NCBI GenBank assembly: GCA_007713595.1
Contig: VMRY01000085.1
Coordinates: 1-43,305, forward strand
DNA from: Sedimenticola thiotaurini
Lineage (GTDB): Bacteria > Pseudomonadota > Gammaproteobacteria > Chromatiales > Chromatiaceae
DNA: 43,305 nt
Direction of reading: 5' to 3'
The first letter of the stretch is position 1. The number at the start of each line of letters is the position of its first letter. Below, in pieces: positions 2,607 to 17,861 of this stretch. The position numbers and the translations under genes were made by a program. The notes below the pieces were generated by a model that was given only the letters and a program-made list of their open reading frames with translations, did not search any database and had not been told where the DNA came from.

Positions 2607-4547
2607 TTACTTGTTGGCGCGGTTTTCAATCAGATCATCCACTACGCCAGGATCAGCCAGGGTAGAGGTATCACCGAGTGTGTCGATCTCGTTACAGGCA
2701 ACCTTGCGCAGGATACGACGCATGATCTTACCTGAACGTGTCTTGGGTAGGCCGGTCGCCCACTGAATGAGATTGATTTTGGCAATGGGGCCAATCTCAT
2801 TACGCACCAGCTTGACCAGTTCTGCCTTCAGTTCATCGGTGGGTTCAACGCCCGCCATGGGGGTGACGTAGGCGTAGATGCCCTGGCCAGTGATCTCATG
2901 TGGATAGCCCACCACCGCAGCTTCAGCCACTTTCTCATGTAATACCAGCGCTGATTCGATTTCCGCAGTACCAAGACGGTGTCCGGAGACATTCAACACG
3001 TCATCGATTCGGCCGGTAATCCAGTAGTAACCATCCTTATCGCGACGTGCCCCGTCACCTGTGAAATAGTTACCAGGATATTGCGAGAAATAGGTGGATT
3101 TAAAGCGGTCATGATCACCATAGACTGAGCGCATCATACCAGGCCAGGGACGGGTTATGATCAATGCACCTTCGCATTCACCTTCCAGTACCTCACCGGT
3201 AGCGGCATCAACGATCTCAGGGACCACGCCGAAGAAAGGCATCGAGGCTGAGCCAGGTTTAAGATCAGTTGCACCGGGCAGTGGGGTGATCAGGTGTCCA
3301 CCGGTTTCAGTCTGCCACCAGGTATCGACGATTGGGCAGCGTGAACCACCGACCACGCGATAGTACCACTCCCAGGCTTCCGGGTTGATTGGCTCGCCGA
3401 CGGATCCGAGCAGACGCAGTGATGACAGATCGTGCTTTTTAACGGGATCTTCGCCAACACGCATAAGGGCGCGAATGGCGGTGGGTGCGGTGTAGAAGGT
3501 ATTGACCTTGTGTTTCTCGCAGACGGCCCAGAAACGCCCGGCATCCGGGTAAGTGGGGATGCCTTCAAACATCAGACTGATGGCGCCATTGGCCAGTGGG
3601 CCGTATACGATATAGGTGTGACCGGTTACCCAGCCAACGTCAGCGGTACACCAATAGATTTCGCCTTCTTTGTAATCGAAGGTGTATTTATGCGTAATAG
3701 CGGCATACAGCAGATAGCCGCCCGTGGTATGCAGTACGCCTTTAGGCTGTCCGGTTGAACCAGAGGTGTAGAGAATGAACAGGGGATCTTCCGCATCCAT
3801 CTCTTCTGGTTCGCAGACGTCTGACGCGTCTGCCATGGCATCGTGGTAGTAGATATCCCTTCCTTCAGTCCAGGCGACATCACCACCGGTACGCTTGACC
3901 ACAATACAGGTCCGCACGTTTGGACAATCTTCCAGCGCTATATCGGCATTGGCCTTGAGCGGGACATTTTTGCCACCACGAACGGACTCATCAGCAGTGA
4001 TCAGGGTCTGGCAGTCAGAATCGAGGATTCGGCTGGAGAGGGCGTCTGGTGAAAAACCGCCGAAGACGATAGAGTGCACCGCGCCGATGCGGGTACAGGC
4101 CAGCATGGCGACAGAGGCTTCCAGGATCATCGGCATGTAGATGCAGACACGATCACCCTTCTTAACACCGCGGGATTTTAGTACGTTAGCGAATTTACAT
4201 ACTTCTCTGTGCAGTTCCCGATAGCTGATCTTTTTGTCTTCATTGGGATTGTCACTCTCCCAGATCAGTGCAGTCTGGTCACCCCGGGTATCCAGATGGC
4301 GATCCAGGCAGTTGTAGGAGACATTTAACTTGCCACCCTGAAACCATTTGATGTTGGCATCATTAAAGTCCCACTCACTCACTTTGTCCCACTTCTTGGA
4401 CCAGGTGAGAAACTCTTCAGCGGCGTCGCCCCAGAAACCATCCGGGTCTTCGACCGAGCGCTGGTACATCGCTTTGTATTTTGCAGCATCAATGTGGGCT
4501 TGAGCAGCGGTGTCAGCACTAACCGGATAGATTTTCTCTTCGGACAT
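2607..4547 (-). CDS. acs: Acetyl-CoA synthetase (AMP-forming)
   Basis: A 646-residue protein, the usual length for Acs. It activates acetate with ATP and CoA through acetyl-AMP in the cytoplasm. Visible ANL-family motifs are [11 protein letters not shown] (P-loop), WWQTETGG, the hinge region [14 protein letters not shown], and the C-terminal [15 protein letters not shown], whose lysine is the residue reversibly acetylated in characterised Acs enzymes. The ATG is preceded by a strong AAGGAGA ribosome-binding site. The exonuclease/DUF294 genes upstream and the symporter/sensor genes further upstream match the acetate loci of pseudomonads and vibrios. No sigma-54 promoter is visible in front of it. 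A 16-bp palindrome lies 30 nt before the start codon. Confidence 0.97.
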
Positions 4548-4576: not shown

Positions 4577-4592
4577 GACCAATCGCTTGGTC
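4577..4592. promoter_or_regulatory. Perfect palindrome upstream of acs (candidate operator)
   Basis: GACCAA and TTGGTC arms flank a 4-nt centre (TCGC), 30-45 nt before the acs ATG in an otherwise AT-rich leader. It could bind a regulator or form a small hairpin in the leader. It does not match the GTTAC-N5-GTAAC palindromes near the symporter and sensor genes. Confidence 0.4.
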
Positions 4593-7717: not shown

Positions 7718-8413
7718 CTATTCGAGCCTGTATGACTGCTGTTTAGCATCTTTATCCGGTTGTCGCATCAGGCGTTCTGCTGGCGGCTTTGCCAATTGTT
7801 CCTCCAGGTAGCGCGCCCGGTCAGCAACGGAGGGCGGTTTTTCTGGCTGATTGCGCATGAACCGGGTAAGAAAGTCAGGCCCTTGCTTGACTTCCGGCGC
7901 CAATTTTACTGCCTCACGGTAATCATTCAGAGCGCCTGTATAGTCTGCCAGCTGATCCCGTAAGATGCCTCGGTTGGCATAGGCGACACCGAGTGCGCGA
8001 CGATTTGCATCACTGATGCCGATAGCCCTTTCCCGTTTTATCGAATTGTCATACAGGGCCCGTGCTGTTTGCAGATGCCTGGCTGATTCGGCCCTAACCG
8101 CGCCAGCCTTTTCCTCATTGTTTTGCTGTTCCAGTTGCAGCGCTTCAACGCGTTGTTGTAGTCCCAACCGCATATGTGATTGAGCCATGCCGCGCAGTGC
8201 GCCGATATTATTCTCATCCTCAGCATAGACCTTGCTGAATAAATCAACGGCGTTGCCAAATTGACCGTCTTCAAGGTAACGGTCGGCGGCGGCAAGCTCG
8301 TGTGCGCCAGGTTTTGTTTCCTGGAGGTCAGTGTCATAAAACATCCAGCCGATCCAGGCTACAGTCAAGATAATGGCAACTCTAACCAGTAGTCGGTAGC
8401 GCGCTTCATCCAT
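7718..8413 (-). CDS. Membrane-anchored TPR-like protein
   Basis: A 231-residue protein with one N-terminal membrane helix (about residues 8-26) followed by a helical, TPR-like region exposed to the periplasm or cytoplasm. Repeat-like helices are seen around AADRYLEDGQFGNAVDLFSK and GVAYANRGILRDQLADYTGA. A coiled, Glu/Gln-rich stretch lies between them. The C-terminal 40 residues are Pro/Lys/Arg-rich. Its start overlaps the end of the 81-aa membrane protein gene by 8 nt, so the two are translationally coupled. Function unknown; probably a scaffold for a membrane complex encoded in this locus. Confidence 0.75.
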   Translation of the reverse strand: MDEARYRLLVRVAIILTVAWIGWMFYDTDLQETKPGAHELAAADRYLEDGQFGNAVDLFSKVYAEDENNIGALRGMAQSHMRLGLQQRVEALQLEQQNNEEKAGAVRAESARHLQTARALYDNSIKRERAIGISDANRRALGVAYANRGILRDQLADYTGALNDYREAVKLAPEVKQGPDFLTRFMRNQPEKPPSVADRARYLEEQLAKPPAERLMRQPDKDAKQQSYRLE

Positions 8414-8651
8414 TGCCTGTGCTGCTCAGCCACAGGTTGAAGAGCCATGAAAAGAGGGTGACCAGGAAGAGACTGATAAAGCGTGCCCGGGTCTTCTGAC
8501 CCTGCAATGCCTCCCCCTCAAGGGGACTTCCCAATTTTTGTTGCAGGCGTCTGACACTGACTACCCAGATCAGGTTGCTGACCGGTACATACAGCATCGC
8601 CGCCAGTAATATGAACCAGAAAAAGAATGACATGCTCATGGCCTGATTCAT
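8406..8651 (-). CDS. Small two-helix membrane protein
   Basis: An 81-residue protein with two hydrophobic helices: about residues 7-29 (FFFWFILLAAMLYVPVSNLI) and 58-74. They are joined by a basic loop containing RRLQQKLGSP. It overlaps the following TPR gene and lies 95 nt downstream of the symporter gene. It may be an accessory subunit of the symporter, as YjcH/DUF485 is for ActP, but I see no sequence match to DUF485. That role is inference from position only. Confidence 0.7.
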   Translation of the reverse strand: MNQAMSMSFFFWFILLAAMLYVPVSNLIWVVSVRRLQQKLGSPLEGEALQGQKTRARFISLFLVTLFSWLFNLWLSSTGNG

Positions 8652-8746
8652 CGCTCAATATGGTGAAATGCTATTCTCTTTCGCAGGGCTATAAACTCCC
8701 CTGCCTTTGTAGCGGTATGCCCTTCGAAAAAAGTTCTGGTTGACAA

Positions 8747-10732
8747 TCATCCCGGTTTATCCAGATCCAGCTGGATATCACCGATATCTTCATGCAGTGC
8801 CACGACCTCTTTATGCGGAATGGTGGAGAGTTCCATCTTGTAGGCCAGCAGCCACATCATACCAACACCGAGTAACCACCAAAGTAACTGCCATGCCCAG
8901 ATCGAAGGCATGCCAAACGTCCAGGTGGCAGCGTTAGTGGGATCACCGAAGATCCAGTTGCCGATCACTGCTCCGGGCCCAATACCGAAGAAGAACCAGA
9001 TCAATGTGGCAATCCAGGTCACCGGGATCAGCCCGCGTTTTTCCGGTGAGAGAGAGGCATGATCGTGCAGAAAATTGTGGAAAATCATGCGATGTTCACG
9101 TTCACTCTCTTTCTGGGTCATGGCCGAGATGATCAGGGCCAGCGACATATTGAACAGTATGCCCCAGAAGGCGGAGTGCAGGGTCATGGGCCAGCGTCCC
9201 CATGGCATGTATTGCGCACCCACACTTTCGGTCAGTGTTACGGCAATCAATCCGGCTATAAGGCCGATGGTGATCCCCTGGCGTGTCAGGTAGGGCCACC
9301 AGCAGACGGCGATCAGTGCGGGCCACATCTGGAAACCATAGGCGACCGCCAAGCCACCCAGGAGCACCAATGCGTCGCTGGAAGTTGACGCCACAACCAA
9401 GGCGGCCAGTACGATCAGGACCACACCGATTCTTCCGTACATCTTCTGCTGTGCATGGGAGGCGTTAGGGATAATAAATCGTTTTAACAGGTCGCGAGTC
9501 AGCATGCCGCCGGCAGTTGACATATAGGCAGAGCCGGTCGACTGCATGGCCGCCAGGGCGCAGACCGAAAGCAGGCCAACCAGCCAAGGTGCGGTTTCAG
9601 ACATCAGGTAGACCAGCTGAGGTACCAGCATGTCGCCTTTGCCTTCTGACTGCATGATATCAATGCCGCCCAGGCCGGTGCCCATGACATTGTTGACCAG
9701 TTCAGGAAACTTGGCCAGAAACTCAAGGTCGGCACCGAGGAAGTGAGCGCCGATGCCCTGAATGGCGGTAAAAAACATCAGGATGAATCCGATGACAAAA
9801 GAGGAGGCCCATACCTGCTGGGGAGCGAATGGCTCGGGGCTCTTGTTGCCAAAGGCCCACATTGAGAAGGCCGGGGCGGACTGAATGCCCATCAGTCCAA
9901 ACATATAGGTCAGTACCATCACGCCAGTCCAGGCACCGCCAATGGGTGCGCTGTCCGTCCCCAATCCAGCACCAAACTGGATCACGCCCGGGATGGCTAT
10001 ATAAGCACTGTAGCCATCGGGAGTGGTCTTGCCGAACATGGCTTTGCCCGTGGCGGGGTCGATCTGGGTCAGTGCGGCAATACCTTCATTCAGACGGGAA
10101 AATCCGCCCACTTCGTGCATGGCGATAATGCCAATCACCACAATGCCGCCGCCGAGTAGGATCGCTTGGGCGGAATCGACGTAGGCAACGGCTCTGAGTC
10201 CACCCGACGCGACGTAGATAATAACCACGATCGAGAGTAGCCACATGCCGACAGTGGTGCTTAGCATGTTATCGGTGAGCACGTTGAACAGGAAGCCGGA
10301 GGCGCGCAGCTGGATACCCAGATAGGGGACAGAGAAGATCAATGCCACCAGTACGACCAGTATCCTGATCAGATCAGAGCGGAAGTAGTAGGAGAGCATC
10401 TCGCCGGGCGTGATGAAACCAAAGCGCTTGCCCAGCATCCATTGCCGTTTGAGAAACAGGACGCCGGTAAAAGGGATGGTGATGGCATAGAACGAGGCAT
10501 AAGCGTATTGAAACCCGTCACGATAGATCAGTCCCGGGTGGCCCATGAAGGTCCAGCCGGAGAAGGAGGTTGCCGTGGCAGCAAGAATAAACACCCAGAG
10601 TGAAATCTGACGTCCTGCAACAAAATAGTCACTGGCTGTCTTGGCAGACAGGGCACCCTTGATGCCCCAGAAGATACAGTAGGACCAGTAAAGCGCAACG
10701 AATACAAACAACCAGACAACCTTCGCGTCCAT
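8747..10732 (-). CDS. Sodium:solute symporter family protein (SLC5-type)
   Basis: A 661-residue polytopic membrane protein with about 13 hydrophobic segments and typical SSS features: YFVAGRQISLW near the N-terminus, GGLRAVAYVDSAQAILLGGG, and a run of LLSVCALAAMQSTGSAYMST in the core. It would import a small organic anion with Na+. The position beside acs and a CrbS-like sensor suggests acetate or another monocarboxylate, but it is longer than ActP and the substrate cannot be read from sequence. A hydrophilic loop (MTQKESEREHR) precedes the last helices. A sigma-54-type promoter and two inverted repeats lie in the 255-bp gap upstream, beside the gene for an NtrC-type regulator. Confidence 0.93.
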   Translation of the reverse strand: MDAKVVWLFVFVALYWSYCIFWGIKGALSAKTASDYFVAGRQISLWVFILAATATSFSGWTFMGHPGLIYRDGFQYAYASFYAITIPFTGVLFLKRQWMLGKRFGFITPGEMLSYYFRSDLIRILVVLVALIFSVPYLGIQLRASGFLFNVLTDNMLSTTVGMWLLSIVVIIYVASGGLRAVAYVDSAQAILLGGGIVVIGIIAMHEVGGFSRLNEGIAALTQIDPATGKAMFGKTTPDGYSAYIAIPGVIQFGAGLGTDSAPIGGAWTGVMVLTYMFGLMGIQSAPAFSMWAFGNKSPEPFAPQQVWASSFVIGFILMFFTAIQGIGAHFLGADLEFLAKFPELVNNVMGTGLGGIDIMQSEGKGDMLVPQLVYLMSETAPWLVGLLSVCALAAMQSTGSAYMSTAGGMLTRDLLKRFIIPNASHAQQKMYGRIGVVLIVLAALVVASTSSDALVLLGGLAVAYGFQMWPALIAVCWWPYLTRQGITIGLIAGLIAVTLTESVGAQYMPWGRWPMTLHSAFWGILFNMSLALIISAMTQKESEREHRMIFHNFLHDHASLSPEKRGLIPVTWIATLIWFFFGIGPGAVIGNWIFGDPTNAATWTFGMPSIWAWQLLWWLLGVGMMWLLAYKMELSTIPHKEVVALHEDIGDIQLDLDKPG

Positions 10733-10841
10733 TGGTCGTATTCCCCCTCAAGTAGTGAGTTGTAAATGGATTTTATAATTCTGTATTTCTGAATCAAGTA
10801 CACAGCAGAGGCGTAGTTGAATTCAAAAGCTGTCGTTATTA

Positions 10842-10857
10842 TGCGAGAAACGTGCCG
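10842..10857 (-). promoter_or_regulatory. Sigma-54 (-24/-12) promoter for the symporter gene
   Basis: On the minus strand the sequence CGGCACG-N4-TCGCA matches the consensus TGGCACG-N4-TTGCW at all but two positions and keeps the invariant GG-N10-GC spacing. The predicted transcription start is near 10831, leaving a leader of about 100 nt before the ATG at 10732. It is the only such match I found upstream of this gene, and the adjacent regulator has the GAFTGA sigma-54 contact loop. Confidence 0.65.
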
Positions 10858-10919
10858 TTTATTAAAGCTATTCAGCTCAATGGCTTGTATAACGCAGGTG
10901 CCTTGCATTACCCCTTTTT

Positions 10920-10934
10920 GTTACTGATAGTAAC
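10920..10934. promoter_or_regulatory. Inverted repeat GTTAC-N5-GTAAC, candidate enhancer site A
   Basis: GTTACTGATAGTAAC is a palindrome with GTTACT/AGTAAC arms and a 3-nt centre. It is centred about 96 bp upstream of the predicted sigma-54 start of the symporter gene, a normal distance for an NtrC-type activator site. Thirteen of its 15 bases match the palindrome in front of the sensor/regulator operon when read on the opposite strand. Confidence 0.55.
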
Positions 10935-10949
10935 GTGCCTGTGTGATTA

Positions 10950-10971
10950 GGTAACAGCGGGTTCTGTTGCC
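10950..10971. promoter_or_regulatory. Inverted repeat, candidate enhancer site B
   Basis: GGTAACAG and CTGTTGCC arms (7 of 8 paired) are separated by 6 nt, centred about 130 bp upstream of the predicted sigma-54 start. It shares the GTAAC/GTTGC half-site letters with site A, though the halves are arranged the other way round. It also lies 17 nt past the stop codon of the response regulator gene, so it may double as a hairpin at that transcript's end; there is no T-run. Confidence 0.4.
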
Positions 10972-10987
10972 GTTATTTCTTAATCGA

Positions 10988-12346
10988 TCAGGATGCCCCT
11001 TTTTTTGTCCTCGGTATACCGAAGCGTTGGCGCCGTTCCCACAGCGCCTTGCGGCTTATGCCCAGTCGCTTGGCGAGTTCAGTTTCCGTCATCTGGTCCT
11101 GGTTTTCCAGGACGAACTGGCGAAAATACTCTTCCAGTGAGAGATCGCCGGCAGGTTGGTTGAGTGTGCTGGTAGGTTTGCCAGCAGTGGAGTGGGCGCT
11201 CTCAATTGCCAGCAGATCGGGTGTAATCAGTTCCTCTTCACAGAGAATAACGGCCCGTTCCAGGGCATTTTCCAGTTCACGTACATTGCCTGGCCAGCTG
11301 TAGGTAGTGATTGTTTCGATGGCGGCCTGATTGAGTGTCATGGGGGAGCGATTGAGCTGCTTGCGTGTCTTTTCCAGCAGAAATTTGGCCAACTCCACCA
11401 CGTCCGCTCCGCGCTCTCTTAGTGGTGGTAGATTGAGTTCAACGACCCGTAACCGGAAATAGAGGTCACTGCGAAACTCCCCCTCCTGAACCCGTTGTTT
11501 CAGATCGCGATGGGTTGCAGCGATCAGTCGAACATCGACCAGCCGTGACTGCTCGGAACCTACCCGGCGTATCTCTCCATTTTGCAGCACGCGAAGCAGT
11601 CTGGCCTGCGCTGCGAGGGGCAATTCGCCTATCTCATCCAGAAACAGCGTGCCCCCTTCAGCCGCTTCGATCAGACCGGTGCGACTGGAATCAGCGCCGG
11701 TGAACGCCCCTTTTTCATGTCCGAAAAGCTCTGATTCAATCAGTGTCTCAGGGATGGCTGCGCAGTTGACTGTGACAATCGGGGCGTCTTTGCGCAGGCT
11801 CTGTTCATGCAGAGCCCTGGCCACCAGCTCTTTGCCTGTGCCAGACTCACCAAATATCAGTACGGTGCTGTCGGTTGGTGCCACCTTGGTAACCCGACGG
11901 CAGACCTCCTGCATGGCGGGGCATTTTCCTACCATGCCATCAACGGGATAGGATTTGTCCAGGTCAGATTTCAGAACCTCTGTCTTTCGCCCCAGTTTTT
12001 CCTGCTTCAGGGTGCGTTCGATGAGCAGTACCAGTTCGTCATGATCAAACGGTTTGGCAATATAATCGATGGCCCCTTTTTTCATCGAGTCAACGGCCGA
12101 ACGGACACTGGCGTAACTCGTCATGATCAGAACAGGCACCCCAGGCGCACGATGAATTACTTCAGTTCCTGGTACGCCGGGAAGTCGGACGTCTGTCAGT
12201 ATCAGGTTAAAGCTCTGCAGGTCATATTTCTGCTCTGCCTCCTCAACCGATTCTGTTGCACTGACCTTATAACCCCGTCGGGTCAGTAGACGCTCTACAG
12301 CGGTACGGATGACCGATTCGTCTTCAATAATCAGTATTTGGCTCAT
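10988..12346 (-). CDS. NtrC-family sigma-54-dependent response regulator
   Basis: A 452-residue protein with the three NtrC modules. The receiver domain (1-120) has acidic residues IIEDE, phospho-acceptor Asp52 in [10 protein letters not shown], and the conserved Thr and Lys in MTSYAS and IAKPF. The AAA+ domain (about 140-370) has Walker A GESGTGKE, the sigma-54 contact loop GAFTGA, and Walker [12 protein letters not shown]. The C-terminal Fis-type helix-turn-helix is [20 protein letters not shown]. It starts 4 nt after the sensor kinase stop, so the two form an operon. CrbS-type kinases described in Vibrio and Pseudomonas partner with LuxR-type regulators (CrbR/ErdR), so an NtrC-type partner here is a different arrangement. 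Likely target: the adjacent symporter gene. Confidence 0.93.
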
Positions 12347-12350
12347 GACA

Positions 12351-15293
12351 TTACAGGTCCAAGTGTTGCGGCAATTTGATTATGACCCGGGTGCCTACTC
12401 CTGGCGCCGAATCGATAGCGATACTGCCATTATGTTCATCGATGATTTTGCCGACCATGGGCAGGCCAAGGCCGGTTCCCTTTCCGGCCTCTTTGGTAGT
12501 AAAGAATGGTTCGAAGATCACGTCCTGGACGTCTTCCGGGATCCCCTCTCCCTGATCCATCACCTCAATCTGTATCTGGTCGTTTGAGGCAAAGGCGAAA
12601 ATCTCTACCCGGTCGCCCGGTTCTGATGCATCGCAGGCATTGGTCAGTAGATTCACCATTACCTGGGCAAGCCGTTGACGATCACCTTTTATAAGCAGGT
12701 CTTCTGGACAGCTGTTGCTGAACTCCACGTGCTTTCCCGCTCGGGTGAGTCCAACGAGTTGGATGGCCTCTTCCAGGATGCTGTTTAGGGTGAAGGTTTC
12801 AAAATTAAGCCCGATGCGTCCACTGCGGCTGTAACTCATGAGCGAATGCACAATGCTGCTGATACGTCGGGTCTGTTGCAGAATCGCTTGAATACTCTCT
12901 CGGGTAGTCTCTTCGTCGCGCTCTTCCAGCAGGTTTTGCGCCAGTGAGGCGATGCCGGATACGGGGTTGCCAATCTCGTGGGCAACACCTGCTGCCAGCT
13001 TTCCGATGGAGGCGAGTCGGTCGCTATGGGCAAGCTCGGCTTCCAGGGTCTCCAGATCCGTCAAATCCTCCAGCAGCAGAACCAGGCCGCTGCGTGGGCC
13101 GGTTTGGTAGTGTGGCAGATCAGGGTCGAGAATCGCCGCCTTATGCAGATTGAACCAGTGCGGGCTGTTGTAGATCGGCACCTCCATGTGATGGATATGC
13201 TCATCCTGGGCCAAAGCAAAACCGGCTAGAAGCTCACCCCAAGGGGCCGTCAGTGAGGAGAGCTTGCGTCCGGTGGCTTCACTGCTGGGTACACCACTCA
13301 TTACCTCCAGTGCCAGGTTCCAGGTGACCACGGTGTGATCTGGATCCACGGCGCAGACTCCTAGGGGTAGATCCAGCAGTACCTGTCGATGATAACGACG
13401 CAGTGCATCAAGATCGGCAGTCAGGCCTTTCAACTTACTGCGCGACTGCTCCATGCGCTCTTCCATGTGGCGGATTGAGTCAGCCAGGGCGGTTTTTGCA
13501 TCACCATCAACCTTGAGCTGCTGATTGATGATCATGTGGGCCATGGCAGGTCCTACCAAACCAGAGAGATTTCGTTCAATGCGTTGTCTGAGTCGCTTCA
13601 ACTCTCTGGGGCGGGTTTCGCTTCGGTCCAGCTCCAGATCCTCCAGGGCCTGATTGACCTCCATCTCGGCCGCTTCACGCCCCAGCATGACGGCAAGGCC
13701 TTCAGAGAACTGGGCTGGAGAGGCCGCCGTAAGCGTACCGTCCAGTGGAATCATAATTGCCACTTCGCTGCGACAGGCGAGTGCGGTCTCCTCTTCTTCC
13801 GGTGACTGCCGGGTGATGAGTGAGATAATCACGAACAGCAGACTGTTGCAGGTGAGTGACCAGAATGTGGAGAACTGCCATTGATCAAGGCCAGCCGTAT
13901 CACGCATGGCAGGGAGATCAATGCCAGTATTCATGAAACCGGACTGCTCCAGTAGCGGCAGTAATAGCGTGATCACCCAGATCGAGAAGCCTCCAAGAAG
14001 ACCAGTGATGAAACCTTCGCGAGTAGCGCGGCGCCAGTAAAGAAGTCCCACAATGCCAGGTAAAAACTGGGCAACAGCTACAAATGAGATCAGGCCGAGT
14101 TGAACCAGTCCCTGATTGTGCTCCAGCACCTCGTAAAAGATGTACCCGGCAAAAATAATCAATCCAATCAGGAGGCGGCGTCCCCACAGCAACCAGCGAT
14201 AAAGATCGACCTTCGGATCGGGATAACTGGCTGGCAGCAGTAGATGGTTGAGGCACATGGATGAGAGTGCCAGGGTCGAGACGATCACCATGGCGCTGGC
14301 GGCGGAAACGCCACCAATAAACGCAAGCACGGGTAGCCAGGCTGGTCCTTTGCTCAAGGTGATGCCAAGCACATAGTAGTCCGCATCCATGTCTAATTTC
14401 AGATATTCGCCTGCCCAGAGAATGGGTGGAATGGCCAGATTCAGCAACAGCAGAAAGAGGGGAAAAGCCCAACTTGCAGTGGCCAGAGAGCGAATTGAGA
14501 GATTCTCTGTAAAGGTCATATGAAACTGTCTGGGCAGCAGAAAGGCCGCACAGAATGACAAAAACAGCAGGGTAGTCCAGGGTCCTTCACGCACCGGTTC
14601 ATAAAGATTGTGTAGTGCTTCAGGGTGTCTTTCCAGATACTGTGCCAGGTCAGTAGGCCCGGAAAAAACACCAAAGATGGCAAAATAGCCCACCGCCAAC
14701 ATGGCGATAATCTTGACCAGTGACTCAAATGCAATGGCTGCCACCAGACCCCGGTGTTTCTCTCGCGGTGTGATATGCCGCGCGCCAAACAGAATGGAAA
14801 ACAGCGTCAGCATCCCGCAGAAGCCCAATGCCAAGGTCTGGGGAATGTCATCGTGGGTCAGTACCTGGATCGAGCTGGTTACTGCGCGGATCTGCAGAGC
14901 GATATAGGGCAACGATCCAAGTAACATGAACAGGGTGACCAGGACCCCCCCGAGCTGACTGCGATAGCGAAAAGCGAGCAGATCAGCCAGGGAAGTGAGC
15001 TGGTATTCCCGGGTCAGGCGCAGTAAGGGTTGCAGCAGTACCGGGCTTAAAATAAAAGCGATAGTGAGGCCCATATAAATGGTCAGGAATTGGTAGCCCT
15101 CGCGCTGGGCGAAGCCAACACTGCCGTAGTAGGTCCAGGAAGTGGCGTAGACGCCCAGGGAGAGGACGTAGACGGGAGGATTATCGGTCCAGCGGTCGGG
15201 TAGCAGGCCGCTGTCAGTAACGTAGGCTACGAAGAAGAGCAGCAGCAGATAGAACAGACTGGCTCCAAAAAGGATCTCCAGATCATAGGTCAT
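12351..15293 (-). CDS. CrbS-like sensor histidine kinase with N-terminal symporter domain
   Basis: ATG 15293 gives 980 residues. A GTG at 15323 would add 10 residues but increases overlap with the upstream gene. The N-terminal 500 residues are an SSS/SLC5 transporter-like domain with about 13 membrane helices. A STAC-like linker follows (about 540-610, [13 protein letters not shown]). Then come a PAS domain (about 655-760), HisKA with phospho-acceptor His in [11 protein letters not shown], and HATPase with [10 protein letters not shown] and [11 protein letters not shown]. There is no fused receiver. Kinases of this type (CrbS/MxtR) control acs and acetate use in vibrios and pseudomonads, with the transporter domain as the probable sensor. 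Here it is co-transcribed with the 66-aa protein and the NtrC-type regulator. Confidence 0.92.
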
Positions 15294-15483
15294 GCTGGGA
15301 ATATTTCCGGCGTAACCAGGCACCCAACACGATTACAAGCAGCCACAATCCATAAGGGACCAGCCAGTGCGCGCGGTCAGATGCCCACCATATCGTAAGT
15401 GGCGAGGCGAAGAGAAAAAGGGCAAAGAGGGCCAGGATCAGCGCACTCTCTCTTAACCTGATAGGATCCGGGTGCTTTTGCAT
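15283..15483 (-). CDS. Small two-helix membrane protein upstream of the sensor kinase
   Basis: A 66-residue protein with two hydrophobic helices (ALILALFALFLFASPLTIWW and LVPYGLWLLVIVLGAWL) and basic ends (RRKYSQHDL). Its stop overlaps the start of the kinase gene by 11 nt, so translation is probably coupled. It is the first gene of the 66-aa/kinase/regulator operon. It may assist assembly or signalling of the kinase's membrane domain, which is inference from position. The start has a GGTAA ribosome-binding site 9 nt upstream, immediately after the palindrome at 15498-15520. Confidence 0.75.
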   Translation of the reverse strand: MQKHPDPIRLRESALILALFALFLFASPLTIWWASDRAHWLVPYGLWLLVIVLGAWLRRKYSQHDL

Positions 15484-15497
15484 TACAATAGATTACC

Positions 15498-15520
15498 AGT
15501 TGTTACTATAGGTAACAACT
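15498..15520. promoter_or_regulatory. Palindrome over the putative -10 of the sensor/regulator operon
   Basis: Nine-base arms AGTTGTTAC and GTAACAACT are perfectly complementary around a 5-nt centre. Read on the minus strand the centre contains TATAGT (15505-15510), a good -10 hexamer. A weak -35 (TTGGCT or TGGCTC) lies 18-19 nt further upstream at about 15529-15535. The core GTTAC-N5-GTAAC matches site A upstream of the symporter. A protein bound here would block the promoter, suggesting autorepression. In RNA it could also form a hairpin next to the ribosome-binding site. Confidence 0.55.
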
Positions 15521-15720
15521 TTGTGCTTGAGCCAAATTATTATGCATAAGTGGTGATAGCGCAGGGATGGGAATGTACCGGAAAGCTATCAGAGTGTTGT
15601 TTTGATAAATGGAGTGGTCAGGACGTATTATCTGGGTAAGTGCGTAAGTGAGAGAGAGTACAAATTCAGCGGAAGTTGTTATAGCGACTGCTTTCTTTAG
15701 AGTAAGGGAGAGGGGAATCG

Positions 15721-16104
15721 ATGAATCCGGAAAAGGTGGTCTTTGGTTTTTTTATTGTATTAGCGTTGACGCTGAATTTCGGATTTTTTGTCGGAGAGAT
15801 CGATAATCCAGATCACCACCATCTCTATGAGCTGTTTGCCGTTGTGATTGTCAATGTGATTGCAACACTGCTCAAATTTGGTGACCGAACCCAGATGGGC
15901 GCGGTGCTGTTGGCTACCAGTCTGGTTGCGGTCATGCAGTTGTTGGCGGCCGCCGTGGTTTGGACGGTGGCAGAGCACATCTCTGCAACTGGACTGACCC
16001 CGCCTGTAACCGCCAGTATCGTTTCGTTATCGGGTGGGGCCATGCTGGCGAATGTTATCTCTGTGGTTTTATTGGTCATTGAGACGGTCATGCTACGGCG
16101 CTGA
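15721..16104 (+). CDS. DUF6394-type three-helix membrane protein
   Basis: A 127-residue protein with three to four hydrophobic segments: about residues 7-24, 37-50, 60-85 and 105-123. A conserved-looking EIDNPDHHHLYELFAVV motif follows the first helix. It is recognised as the DUF6394 family from overall pattern; no function is established. The gene ends 14 nt before the potassium channel gene and is almost certainly co-transcribed with it, so it may be a channel accessory subunit. The start is supported by GGGAGAGGGG about 6 nt upstream. Confidence 0.8.
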   Translation: MNPEKVVFGFFIVLALTLNFGFFVGEIDNPDHHHLYELFAVVIVNVIATLLKFGDRTQMGAVLLATSLVAVMQLLAAAVVWTVAEHISATGLTPPVTASIVSLSGGAMLANVISVVLLVIETVMLRR

Positions 16105-16118
16105 TAGGATTACCGACG

Positions 16119-17861
16119 ATGCATAGCATCTACTTCCTCATCTTTCGCCGGATGCGCCAGCCACTGCTGACGTTGGTGGTGACCTATGCGGTTGCTGTAT
16201 TGGGTTTGTCACTGATACCGGGGCAGGATGATGCTGGCAATGTTTGGTATATGGATCTGTTTCACGCCATCTATTTCGTCAGCTTTATGGCCACCACGAT
16301 TGGGTTTGGTGAGATTCCCTATCCATTTACGGATGCCCAGCGGCTCTGGGTTACCTTCTCCATCTACGCCACGGTGGTGGTCTGGGTCTATGCCATTGGT
16401 ACGTTGTTGACGCTGGTCCAGGATAAGACCTTCCAGCAGGCATTGACCGAAAGTAAATTCACCAAACGTGTAAAACGGATGCGTGATGCCTTTTATCTTG
16501 TTTGTGGCTATGGCGAAACGGGCAGTGCCCTGATCCATGCTCTGACGGAGCGGGACCACTCGGTGGTTGCTATTGATATCAACCCGGACCGGGTGAATAT
16601 ACTGCAGCTGGAGAACCTGCGTCAGTTTGTGCCCGCCCTGCATGGAGATGCCTCCAAGCCAATACACCTGCTGGAAGCTGGACTAAAAAATCCGCTCTGT
16701 CGTGGCGTTGTGGCTCTGACGAATGTCAACGAGGTAAACCTGAAGATTGCTATTACCAGCAAACTGCTGCATCCAGAGATCAAGGTGATCTGTCGATCTG
16801 ATTCTCATGACATTGAAGAGAATATGGCGTCATTTGGTACCGATCACATCATCAATCCATTTGACACCTTTGCCCACCATCTGGCGACTGCGCTCCAGGC
16901 ACCAGGTCTCTATCTGCTGCACGCCTGGCTTACGGGGGGGCGCGGTTATTCTTTGGAAGAACCGATCTACCCACCTGCATCGGGTCGCTGGATTGTCTGT
17001 GGCTACGGTCGTTTTGGTAAGGCGATTTGTCAACGGCTAAAGAAGGAGGGCATTGAACCGATTGTCATTGAGTCAAAACCAGATGTCACTGGCATGCCGC
17101 AAGAGGGCTATGTTCTTGGTCGGGGTACTGAAGCGAAGACATTGTCAGAGGCTGGAATAGAACAGGCTGTTGGATTGGTGGCAGGGACGGATAATGATGC
17201 CAATAATCTATCGATTATCATGACCGCCAGAGAGTTGCGTCCTGATCTGTTTGTTATTTTGCGGCAGAACCAGAAGGAAAATCAGTCCATCGTCAATGCA
17301 GTGAAGGCCGATATGGTGATGCATGCCAGCGCTATAATCGCCAACAGGATTCGTGTCTTGCTGGGCACGCCGCTCCTCTATCAATTCACCAGTTTGGCAC
17401 GCCATGAAACGGATGAGTGGGCCTGTGAGCTGGTCAGCAGAATTGGTGCCCTGGTCGATGGGGAGAGGCCTGTCGTCTGGGAAGTTGAATTGAACAGCAA
17501 GCAGGCGCTGGCGGTTTTTAGTGCAATCAATCAAGGTAGCCTGGTGACATTGGGCCATCTGCTGGTCGACCCACGCCACCGGCAACGATCCCTGCCCTGT
17601 ATCCCCCTTCTCATGAAACGGGGAGAGCAGCGTTCGATGTTGCCAGCCTTCGATACACCGCTGAAAAAAGGTGATCATCTGCTGTTCTGCGGACGCTACT
17701 CATCCCGGGATCGCATGGAATGGGGGCTGCAAAATGTTCATGCGCTGAATTATATTCTCACTGGTGAATCAGCCTCTGGAGGCTGGTTGTGGCGGCGGCT
17801 AAAACGGAACAGCTCGTTTTCGAAGGCGGTGAAAAATTCAGGAGATGACGCGATTGGGTAA
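16119..17861 (+). CDS. Potassium channel family protein with two RCK/TrkA-N domains
   Basis: A 580-residue protein. Two membrane helices (about 15-33 and 76-100) flank a pore loop with selectivity filter TTIGFG at 59-64; the usual filter is TVGYG. Two cytoplasmic TrkA-N/RCK domains follow, each with a Rossmann dinucleotide motif: GYGETG at 130-135 and GYGRFG at 295-300. A TrkA-C-like region follows around 450-560. The fused double-RCK layout is that of ligand-gated bacterial K+ channels in which one chain supplies both RCK halves. The ligand is unknown. The Phe in place of Tyr in the filter is tolerated in some K+-selective channels. It follows the DUF6394 gene by 14 nt. Confidence 0.9.
   Translation: MHSIYFLIFRRMRQPLLTLVVTYAVAVLGLSLIPGQDDAGNVWYMDLFHAIYFVSFMATTIGFGEIPYPFTDAQRLWVTFSIYATVVVWVYAIGTLLTLVQDKTFQQALTESKFTKRVKRMRDAFYLVCGYGETGSALIHALTERDHSVVAIDINPDRVNILQLENLRQFVPALHGDASKPIHLLEAGLKNPLCRGVVALTNVNEVNLKIAITSKLLHPEIKVICRSDSHDIEENMASFGTDHIINPFDTFAHHLATALQAPGLYLLHAWLTGGRGYSLEEPIYPPASGRWIVCGYGRFGKAICQRLKKEGIEPIVIESKPDVTGMPQEGYVLGRGTEAKTLSEAGIEQAVGLVAGTDNDANNLSIIMTARELRPDLFVILRQNQKENQSIVNAVKADMVMHASAIIANRIRVLLGTPLLYQFTSLARHETDEWACELVSRIGALVDGERPVVWEVELNSKQALAVFSAINQGSLVTLGHLLVDPRHRQRSLPCIPLLMKRGEQRSMLPAFDTPLKKGDHLLFCGRYSSRDRMEWGLQNVHALNYILTGESASGGWLWRRLKRNSSFSKAVKNSGDDAIG

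Follow-up and report, generated by a model that had tools for sequence, protein, structure and literature searches.

The 43,305-nucleotide stretch of Sedimenticola thiotaurini DNA analysed here (contig VMRY01000085.1, the whole of which is called the window in the following) carries, on its minus strand and in this order, a 66-amino-acid (aa) open reading frame (ORF), a 990-aa sensor kinase, an NtrC-type response regulator, a 661-aa symporter of the SSS family (SSS1), an 81-aa protein and a TPR protein. By sequence comparison, the kinase/regulator pair is orthologous to CbrA and CbrB of Pseudomonas, the small ORF being CbrX-like. Quite probably, the locus represents a CbrXAB system outside the Pseudomonadaceae, in which CbrB would recognize its half-sites TGTTAC/GTAACA set as a 6-5-6 dyad (i.e. 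TGTTAC-N5-GTAACA), activate symporter genes through sigma-54 and repress its own operon in response to an acetate-type compound. The unexpected features are the host range, the fact that the site is palindromic, the autoregulatory operator, the acetate-type cargo and the presence of a CrbS-like pocket on a CbrA kinase.

The kinase is approximately 48% identical to Pseudomonas CbrA over its full length, the membrane part included (kinase relatives: the best 80 of 574). Its Pfam matches are PAS, HisKA and HATPase_c; no Response_reg was found in this search, and the SSF and STAC models are not among the matches. The regulator combines a REC and a sigma-54 AAA+ domain, the latter with the GAFTGA motif already recognized in an earlier note on this DNA; it is 57-61% identical to pseudomonad-group CbrB and has in common with Pseudomonas CbrB the C-terminal helix-turn-helix (72-79% over the last 45 columns, seven rows). 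The small ORF overlaps the kinase gene by 41 nucleotides (nt) with the GTG start or by 11 nt with the alternative ATG; cbrX of Pseudomonas putida encodes 58 aa and overlaps by 17 nt (PMC8871633; here and below, papers are cited for the passages that bear on the point at issue).

In a kinase tree of 92 rows, myxobacterial ones included, the five Pseudomonas CrbS used as the outgroup lie on one side and all CbrA on the other, and the Pseudomonas CbrA group forms one clade (99 in the Shimodaira-Hasegawa-like approximate likelihood ratio test) nested among gammaproteobacterial rows; the tree was made by a quick method, has 19 open forks and a very long branch to CrbS, and its root is unsure. The earlier note had taken the kinase for a CrbS-type one and had seen a different wiring in its pairing with a sigma-54 activator. 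With no receiver and a place on the other side of the tree, the kinase is instead of the CbrA type, for which an NtrC-type sigma-54 partner, CbrB, is the normal one. The genome's other SLC5-type kinase (L267, 2765-6277) was also considered as CrbS and dropped because it has no receiver; it is 1170 aa long, contains PAS domains and has the same pocket residues. When genomes were drawn class-wide, a kinase match at E <= 1e-120 turned up in 39 of 369. CbrAB has been called unique to Pseudomonadaceae or exclusive of Pseudomonads (PMC8871633, PMC6296734), and the genome paper of a vent sulfur oxidizer lists a CbrA/CbrB homolog in passing (PMC4136832); no paper on CbrAB sites or targets outside Pseudomonadaceae was among those listed in searches of the open-licence literature.

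The half-sites TGTTAC/GTAACA were defined by mutagenesis for CbrB of P. putida (PMC6296734, PMC8871633). Their inner part, GTTAC-N5-GTAAC, occurs exactly twice in the window (10920-10934 and 15502-15516), at the symporter and at the sensor-operon promoters, against 0.02 occurrences expected and none of 100 shuffles reaching two, in agreement with the earlier note. The 13 of 15 identical bases it had counted between the two sites hold only if one of them is reverse-complemented, which is harmless for a dyad.

At the symporter, the sigma-54 promoter pointed out earlier fits the pattern perfectly, as no other place in the window does. Five matches are found against 3.3 expected if one mismatch is tolerated, so that the promoter is not significant on its own; it is, however, conserved in relatives. 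The note's distances of about 96 and 130 base pairs (bp) for two inverted repeats are right if transcription starts 12 bp past the -12 GC. Of the farther repeat (-130), relatives keep only the GTAACA half and not the inverted repeat. Orthologs of the symporter were found in 13 of 55 genomes, all 13 of them judged to carry CbrA. They make up 14 loci (one genome, G018, counted twice), of which 13 are readable because the upstream region of G005 is incomplete. A dyad matching at least 10 of the 12 half-site positions precedes the symporter in 13 of 13, accompanied in each by a GTTAC half-site 20-23 bp farther out, and in 11 of 13 at least nine of the 12 sigma-54 positions match. The dyad is present also in three genomes (G012, G017, G023) in which the symporter does not adjoin cbrB in the sequence read. 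G018 contains two cbrA-cbrB-symporter blocks (L057 on contig C16 and L043 on contig C99), both with dyad and sigma-54 site before the symporter. Between enhancer and promoter, a weak match to the site of integration host factor (IHF) was noted by eye; the IHF consensus is fitted perfectly in one relative (G006) only, among the loci printed.

At the operon, the palindrome that had been noted is a perfect one with 9-bp arms. It does not cover the -10, as the note had it, but the -35 and most of the 17-bp spacer, the -10 lying directly 3' of it. That the palindrome should recur in relatives was a proposed check, and it does. The operon site could be scored in 122 of 129 loci (seven had too little upstream sequence or a late match), and the 330 bp 5' of the kinase gene contained a dyad scoring 10/12 or more in 64 of the 74 gammaproteobacterial loci outside the pseudomonad group, in 34 of these at 12/12, and in 0/42 loci of the pseudomonad group (41 titled Pseudomonas or Halopseudomonas plus a metagenome-assembled genome, L119, that groups with them) and 0/6 myxobacterial/deltaproteobacterial ones. 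The background was 1 of 631 search windows inside kinase genes and 34 of 3700 mononucleotide shuffles. Of the 64, 36 have an extended -10 (TGnTAnnnT) within the 22 nt that follow the dyad. In 32 loci a start codon 4-10 nt past the extended -10 opens an ORF running to or into the kinase gene, the distance being exactly 6 nt in 26. Since the ATG of cbrX likewise lies 6 nt past the -10, the cbrXAB mRNA is probably leaderless, and the same probably applies to the loci with a close start codon, in which the dyad lies over the -35 and the spacer. Such a position fits autorepression.

The two promoters suggest the following circuit, the binder, the direction of control (activation or repression), the transcription start sites and the ligand being deduced from sequence. 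CbrA would sense an acetate-type compound, and phosphorylated CbrB would bind TGTTAC-N5-GTAACA, probably as a dimer. Positioned about 96 bp upstream of the predicted symporter transcription start, with the extra half-site two helical turns farther, CbrB would activate the sigma-54 polymerase and the transporter would be expressed; a second symporter (SSS2, of the VC_2705 family), encoded on contig C10 with a DUF4212 protein, would be co-activated. On the 23-bp palindrome, which would overlie the -35 and spacer of a sigma-70-type extended -10 promoter, CbrB would block transcription of cbrXAB, closing a negative feedback loop. The idea of the earlier note that one protein activates the symporter and represses its own operon is thus borne out as far as the shared dyad and its conserved geometry go, while binding by the regulator, repression and dependence on sigma-54 stay predictions.

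As to the signal, the probable stimulus of the sensor, with its CrbS-like SLC5 pocket, is acetate or a related monocarboxylate. The histidine contacts of P. putida CbrA were named in a 2026 preprint (PMC13022988). At the 11 corresponding positions the window kinase reads YTWTIYKSARF and five Pseudomonas kinases, taken for CrbS on the strength of their frame length (1170-1189 aa) and their rank, all have YTWTIYKAARF, so that 10/11 are the same and only residue 248 differs (Ser/Ala). With respect to pseudomonad CbrA, the changes are H257R, F248S/A, S53T, A56S/T, I/V at 74 and S251A; Y51, W55, Y75, K196 and F406 are unchanged (with one Y51F). Residue 257 is His in 42/42 pseudomonad-group kinases and Arg in 72/74 of the other gammaproteobacterial ones (Phe in L052, Pro in L109) and in 6/6 myxobacterial/deltaproteobacterial ones; contacts 53, 56, 74, 248 and 251 are also shifted, 74 varying within pseudomonads too. 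An arginine in the pocket suits a carboxylate. The kinase L052 (genome G040), which sits on a long branch next to Pseudomonas CbrA in the tree and has Phe257 and no dyad, is possibly an intermediate or reflects a further change of ligand.

The same circuit might instead answer to general carbon limitation or to histidine, as discussed for Pseudomonas, an alternative to which we give a sizeable though minor chance. Indeed, Pseudomonas CbrAB is a global carbon regulator, signalling does not require its SLC5 domain, and the signal may come from inside the cell (PMC7918813, PMC9100948). However, the histidine contacts differ here and agree with those of CrbS, and the cargo found after cbrB is repeatedly a symporter, acs or porin-acs. 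Of the non-pseudomonad loci, 49 extend for 800 bp or more beyond cbrB. In 27 of them, cbrB is adjoined by a symporter (18), acs (5), porin-acs (3) or ABC (1) gene, and a dyad of at least 10/12 is present within 500 bp in 26 of these (e.g. acs in L106, L111, L120 and L121, porin-acs in L103, L116 and L157), the remaining one (L113) scoring 9/12. With other genes after cbrB there was none in 22 loci (highest score 8), and sigma-54 matches of at least 9 were found in 22/27 and 3/22, respectively. The porin, ABC and second-SSS queries were picked after 23 loci had been viewed, which makes the contrast of 26/27 with 0/22 partly post hoc; leaving out the ABC locus gives 25/26. The counts, moreover, are of loci, not of independent events, L046 and L091 being on the same contig and L048 and L085 apparent near copies, and several loci come from metagenome-assembled genomes. 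In four of the 22 loci with other genes (L046, L090, L091, L118), a gene for a DUF4212 protein or an SSS2-like one lies 2.5-2.8 kb farther on. A gammaproteobacterial metagenome-assembled genome (L096) has an exact dyad about 270 bp after cbrB, before a putative branched-chain-amino-acid/urea-type ABC operon in front of which no sigma-54 site was recognizable; it is possibly another kind of cargo.

The operon dyad could also be a site of positive autoregulation, at which CbrB aids the sigma-70 promoter or acts as a distant enhancer for another promoter. This is suggested by a further GTAACA half-site that follows the cbrX-upstream dyad within about 20 bp in some lineages (L081, L082, L083, L099, L108, L112, L123), reminiscent of the symporter enhancer. 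Against it, a sigma-54 match of at least 9 between dyad and kinase gene occurs in just 1 of the 64 dyad-bearing gammaproteobacterial loci and is absent in 63, which indicates that the operon is not driven by sigma-54 from this interval; in the window's relatives, furthermore, the site on the -35 and spacer, with its 6-nt distance from -10 to start codon, is an occluding one. Positive control is an unlikely reading of the operon site, and repression by CbrB is the one retained here.

That the palindromes belong to another DNA-binding protein, with CbrB not involved, is quite improbable. Palindromes of such length are common among operators; these, however, equal the experimentally defined half-site of CbrB, precede sigma-54 promoters, which need an activator of the CbrB class, after cbrB in several distant lineages, and track the presence of CbrAB across genomes. 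Exact copies of the 17-mer TGTTAC-N5-GTAACA number 21 in 55 genomes (S. thiotaurini included) against seven for the reversed pattern, 19 of them in the 22 genomes judged to contain CbrA and two in the other 33; of the 19, 13 lie at the cbrX promoter, one at SSS1 and four at SSS2, the last one (G031) being unassigned. S. thiotaurini itself has two exact 17-mers, against none for the reversed control: the operon palindrome and one upstream of the DUF4212-SSS2 pair on contig C10, the latter followed after 43 bp by a weaker dyad and then by a sigma-54 site, TGGCCCAAATCATGCA. With two truncated rows (G009, G018) left out of the comparison, 11 of 13 genomes with CbrA and 0 of 11 without it have a dyad scoring 10/12 or more in front of this pair.

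Several results weigh against the proposed circuit of CbrB-activated symporters and a self-repressed operon. The dyad is missing upstream of cbrXA in 10 of the 74 non-pseudomonad gammaproteobacterial loci and upstream of SSS2 in two CbrA-containing genomes (G010 and G027), and in only 36 of the 64 dyad-bearing loci is an extended -10 close by. SSS1 does not reach the cut-off of any named transporter model. When acs, the best marker for acetate, was considered as a direct target in the window's family, no dyad of 10/12 was found upstream of it in 16 of 16 loci read in CbrA-containing genomes, the window included (the remaining six such genomes having no listed acs match or locus), and the candidate was rejected; acetate would, therefore, be reached here only via symporters. 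The 6-5-6 arrangement is the NtrC geometry, which suggests binding of a dimer. CbrB of P. putida, instead, acted as a monomer on non-palindromic subsites (PMC6296734, PMC8871633), which makes a dimer on the dyad an extrapolation. Finally, the motif is not enriched genome-wide, neither as the exact 15-mer (four copies against five in the reversed control) nor as the 17-mer with up to two mismatches (125 against 165), and with up to three mismatches the window contains 15 matches against 10.9 expected, again no enrichment; the signal is thus only in exact or near-exact sites at the right places. One exact 15-mer (C148:122786), within an ORF read as an ABC-transporter ATPase, was discarded as a chance occurrence. 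That the palindromes and the sigma-54 match of the window are all products of chance, as this lack of enrichment might suggest, is hardly credible in view of their conservation at fixed positions in dozens of loci and of the natural controls provided by SSS2 and the cargo genes.

The closest known system is CbrX-CbrA-CbrB-CrcZ of Pseudomonas and Azotobacter (PMC8871633, PMC6296734, PMC13022988), which shares with the window a small ORF upstream of and overlapping the kinase gene, a receiver-less SLC5/PAS kinase, an NtrC-type regulator, the helix-turn-helix and half-site, and a sigma-54 promoter with CbrB sites directly after cbrB. The spacing differs, being TGTTAC-N12-14-GTAACA-N15-19-GTAACA in Pseudomonas and TGTTAC-N15-CGTTAC-N5-GTAACA (minus strand) in the window, and so do residue 257 of the pocket, the dyad on the cbrXAB promoter, seen here and not in the pseudomonad group, and the gene after cbrB, which is the symporter here and that of the small RNA CrcZ in Pseudomonas. 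In pseudomonad-group loci the sigma-54 promoter and spaced half-sites after cbrB are mostly kept, and in seven named loci CrcZ follows cbrB in 4/4 of this group and in 0/3 others. An Rfam search for CrcZ gave no match in positions 8000-17000 of the window; the whole-genome search gave none either, but was silent also in all 14 control genomes and does not demonstrate absence.

The CrbS/CrbR (MxtR/ErdR) acetate switch resembles the present system in having an SLC5 kinase tied to acetate uptake and acs and, as found here, in the pocket residues YTWTIYK(S/A)ARF; however, CrbS, a hybrid kinase, ends in a C-terminal receiver, and CrbR is of the LuxR type and has its ACTU repeat beside a predicted RpoD promoter (PMC5715377), unlike the receiver-less kinase and the sigma-54 activator of the window. 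RpuS/RpuR-MctP of Sinorhizobium fredii also has an SLC5/STAC kinase controlling a monocarboxylate symporter, but it is another kinase system, of an alphaproteobacterium, and the words NtrC and sigma54 are absent from the main text of the paper describing it (PMC9100948). In enteric bacteria, NtrC is a single activator with a sigma-54 enhancer at glnA and an operator over its own sigma-70 promoter; the logic and the 6-5-6 geometry are shared with the window, while half-site, sensor and target class differ.

An evolutionary scenario is offered tentatively, its chances being, in our view, close to even but not above. CbrAB may originally have been, in gammaproteobacteria and beyond, a sigma-54 switch that kept itself in check and served to scavenge acetate-type compounds, and the Pseudomonadaceae may have made it a global regulator by linked changes, i.e. 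loss of the autorepression dyad, replacement of symporter or acs by CrcZ, of Arg257 by His257 and of the 6-5-6 dyad by spaced half-sites. With at least eight changes of the dyad trait on the tree and a root on the very long CrbS branch, loss in Pseudomonas as opposed to gain elsewhere is not firm. The published descriptions 'unique to Pseudomonadaceae' and 'non-palindromic' (PMC8871633, PMC6296734) would, we suggest, apply to the pseudomonad branch only. The comparison supplies a precise dyad and predicts negative autoregulation through an operator not found in the pseudomonad-group loci; residue 257 would offer a one-residue handle on what CbrA senses and on how the CbrAB-CrcZ-Crc hierarchy arose, and sigma-54 control of carbon-compound uptake is predicted in sulfur-oxidizer lineages such as Thiodiazotropha and Sedimenticola.

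Table 1. Positions in the window of the genes and of the predicted regulatory elements discussed in the text.
Feature	Positions	Strand	Remark
23-bp perfect palindrome AGTTGTTAC-TATAG-GTAACAACT, 9-bp arms	15498..15520		core TGTTAC-N5-GTAACA at 15501-15517; putative CbrB operator
-35-like TTGTTA	15513..15518	-	within palindrome, 17 bp from -10; sequence reading
Extended -10 TGGTAATCT (TGnTAnnnT)	15490..15498	-	conserved; directly 3' of palindrome
CbrX-like ORF, 66 aa, membrane-peptide-like	15283..15483	-	ATG 6 nt past -10; overlaps kinase gene start
Sensor kinase, CbrA ortholog	12351..15323	-	SLC5-like membrane part (by alignment), PAS, HisKA, HATPase; no receiver; alternative start ATG 15293
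NtrC-type response regulator, CbrB ortholog	10988..12346	-	REC + sigma-54 AAA+
Conserved extra half-site	10951..10956	-	GTAACA on plus, TGTTAC on minus strand; 21 bp before dyad
Enhancer dyad TGTTAC-TGATA-GTAACG, 11/12	10919..10935		centre about 96 bp 5' of predicted symporter start
Weak IHF-like site CAAGCCATTGAGC	10875..10887	-	between enhancer and promoter; by eye
Sigma-54 -24/-12 promoter CGGCACGTTTCTCGCA	10842..10857	-	only perfect match in window to YGGCACRNNNNTYGCW
SSS-family sodium/solute symporter SSS1, 661 aa	8747..10732	-	putative CbrB target
Small 81-aa protein	8406..8651	-	3' of symporter; conserved together with symporter
TPR protein	7718..8413	-	conserved together with symporter
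acs, acetate--CoA ligase	2607..4547	-	no CbrB dyad upstream; context only

On the other side of the cbrX palindrome and pointing away from it, a divergent pair encoding a DUF6394 protein and a TrkA-like ion-channel protein occupies positions 15721-17861; in some relatives (L038, L039, L043, L044, L046) the palindrome is kept, but the pair was not detected at that place. Beyond the TPR gene, the same strand carries genes for a CBS/DUF294 protein and an exonuclease, followed by acs. Upstream of the latter, at 4577-4592, the inverted repeat GACCAA-TCGC-TTGGTC resembles, by eye, the 'ACTU' repeats of CrbR (PMC5715377), and acs may be under the control of a CrbS/R-type system instead of CbrB.

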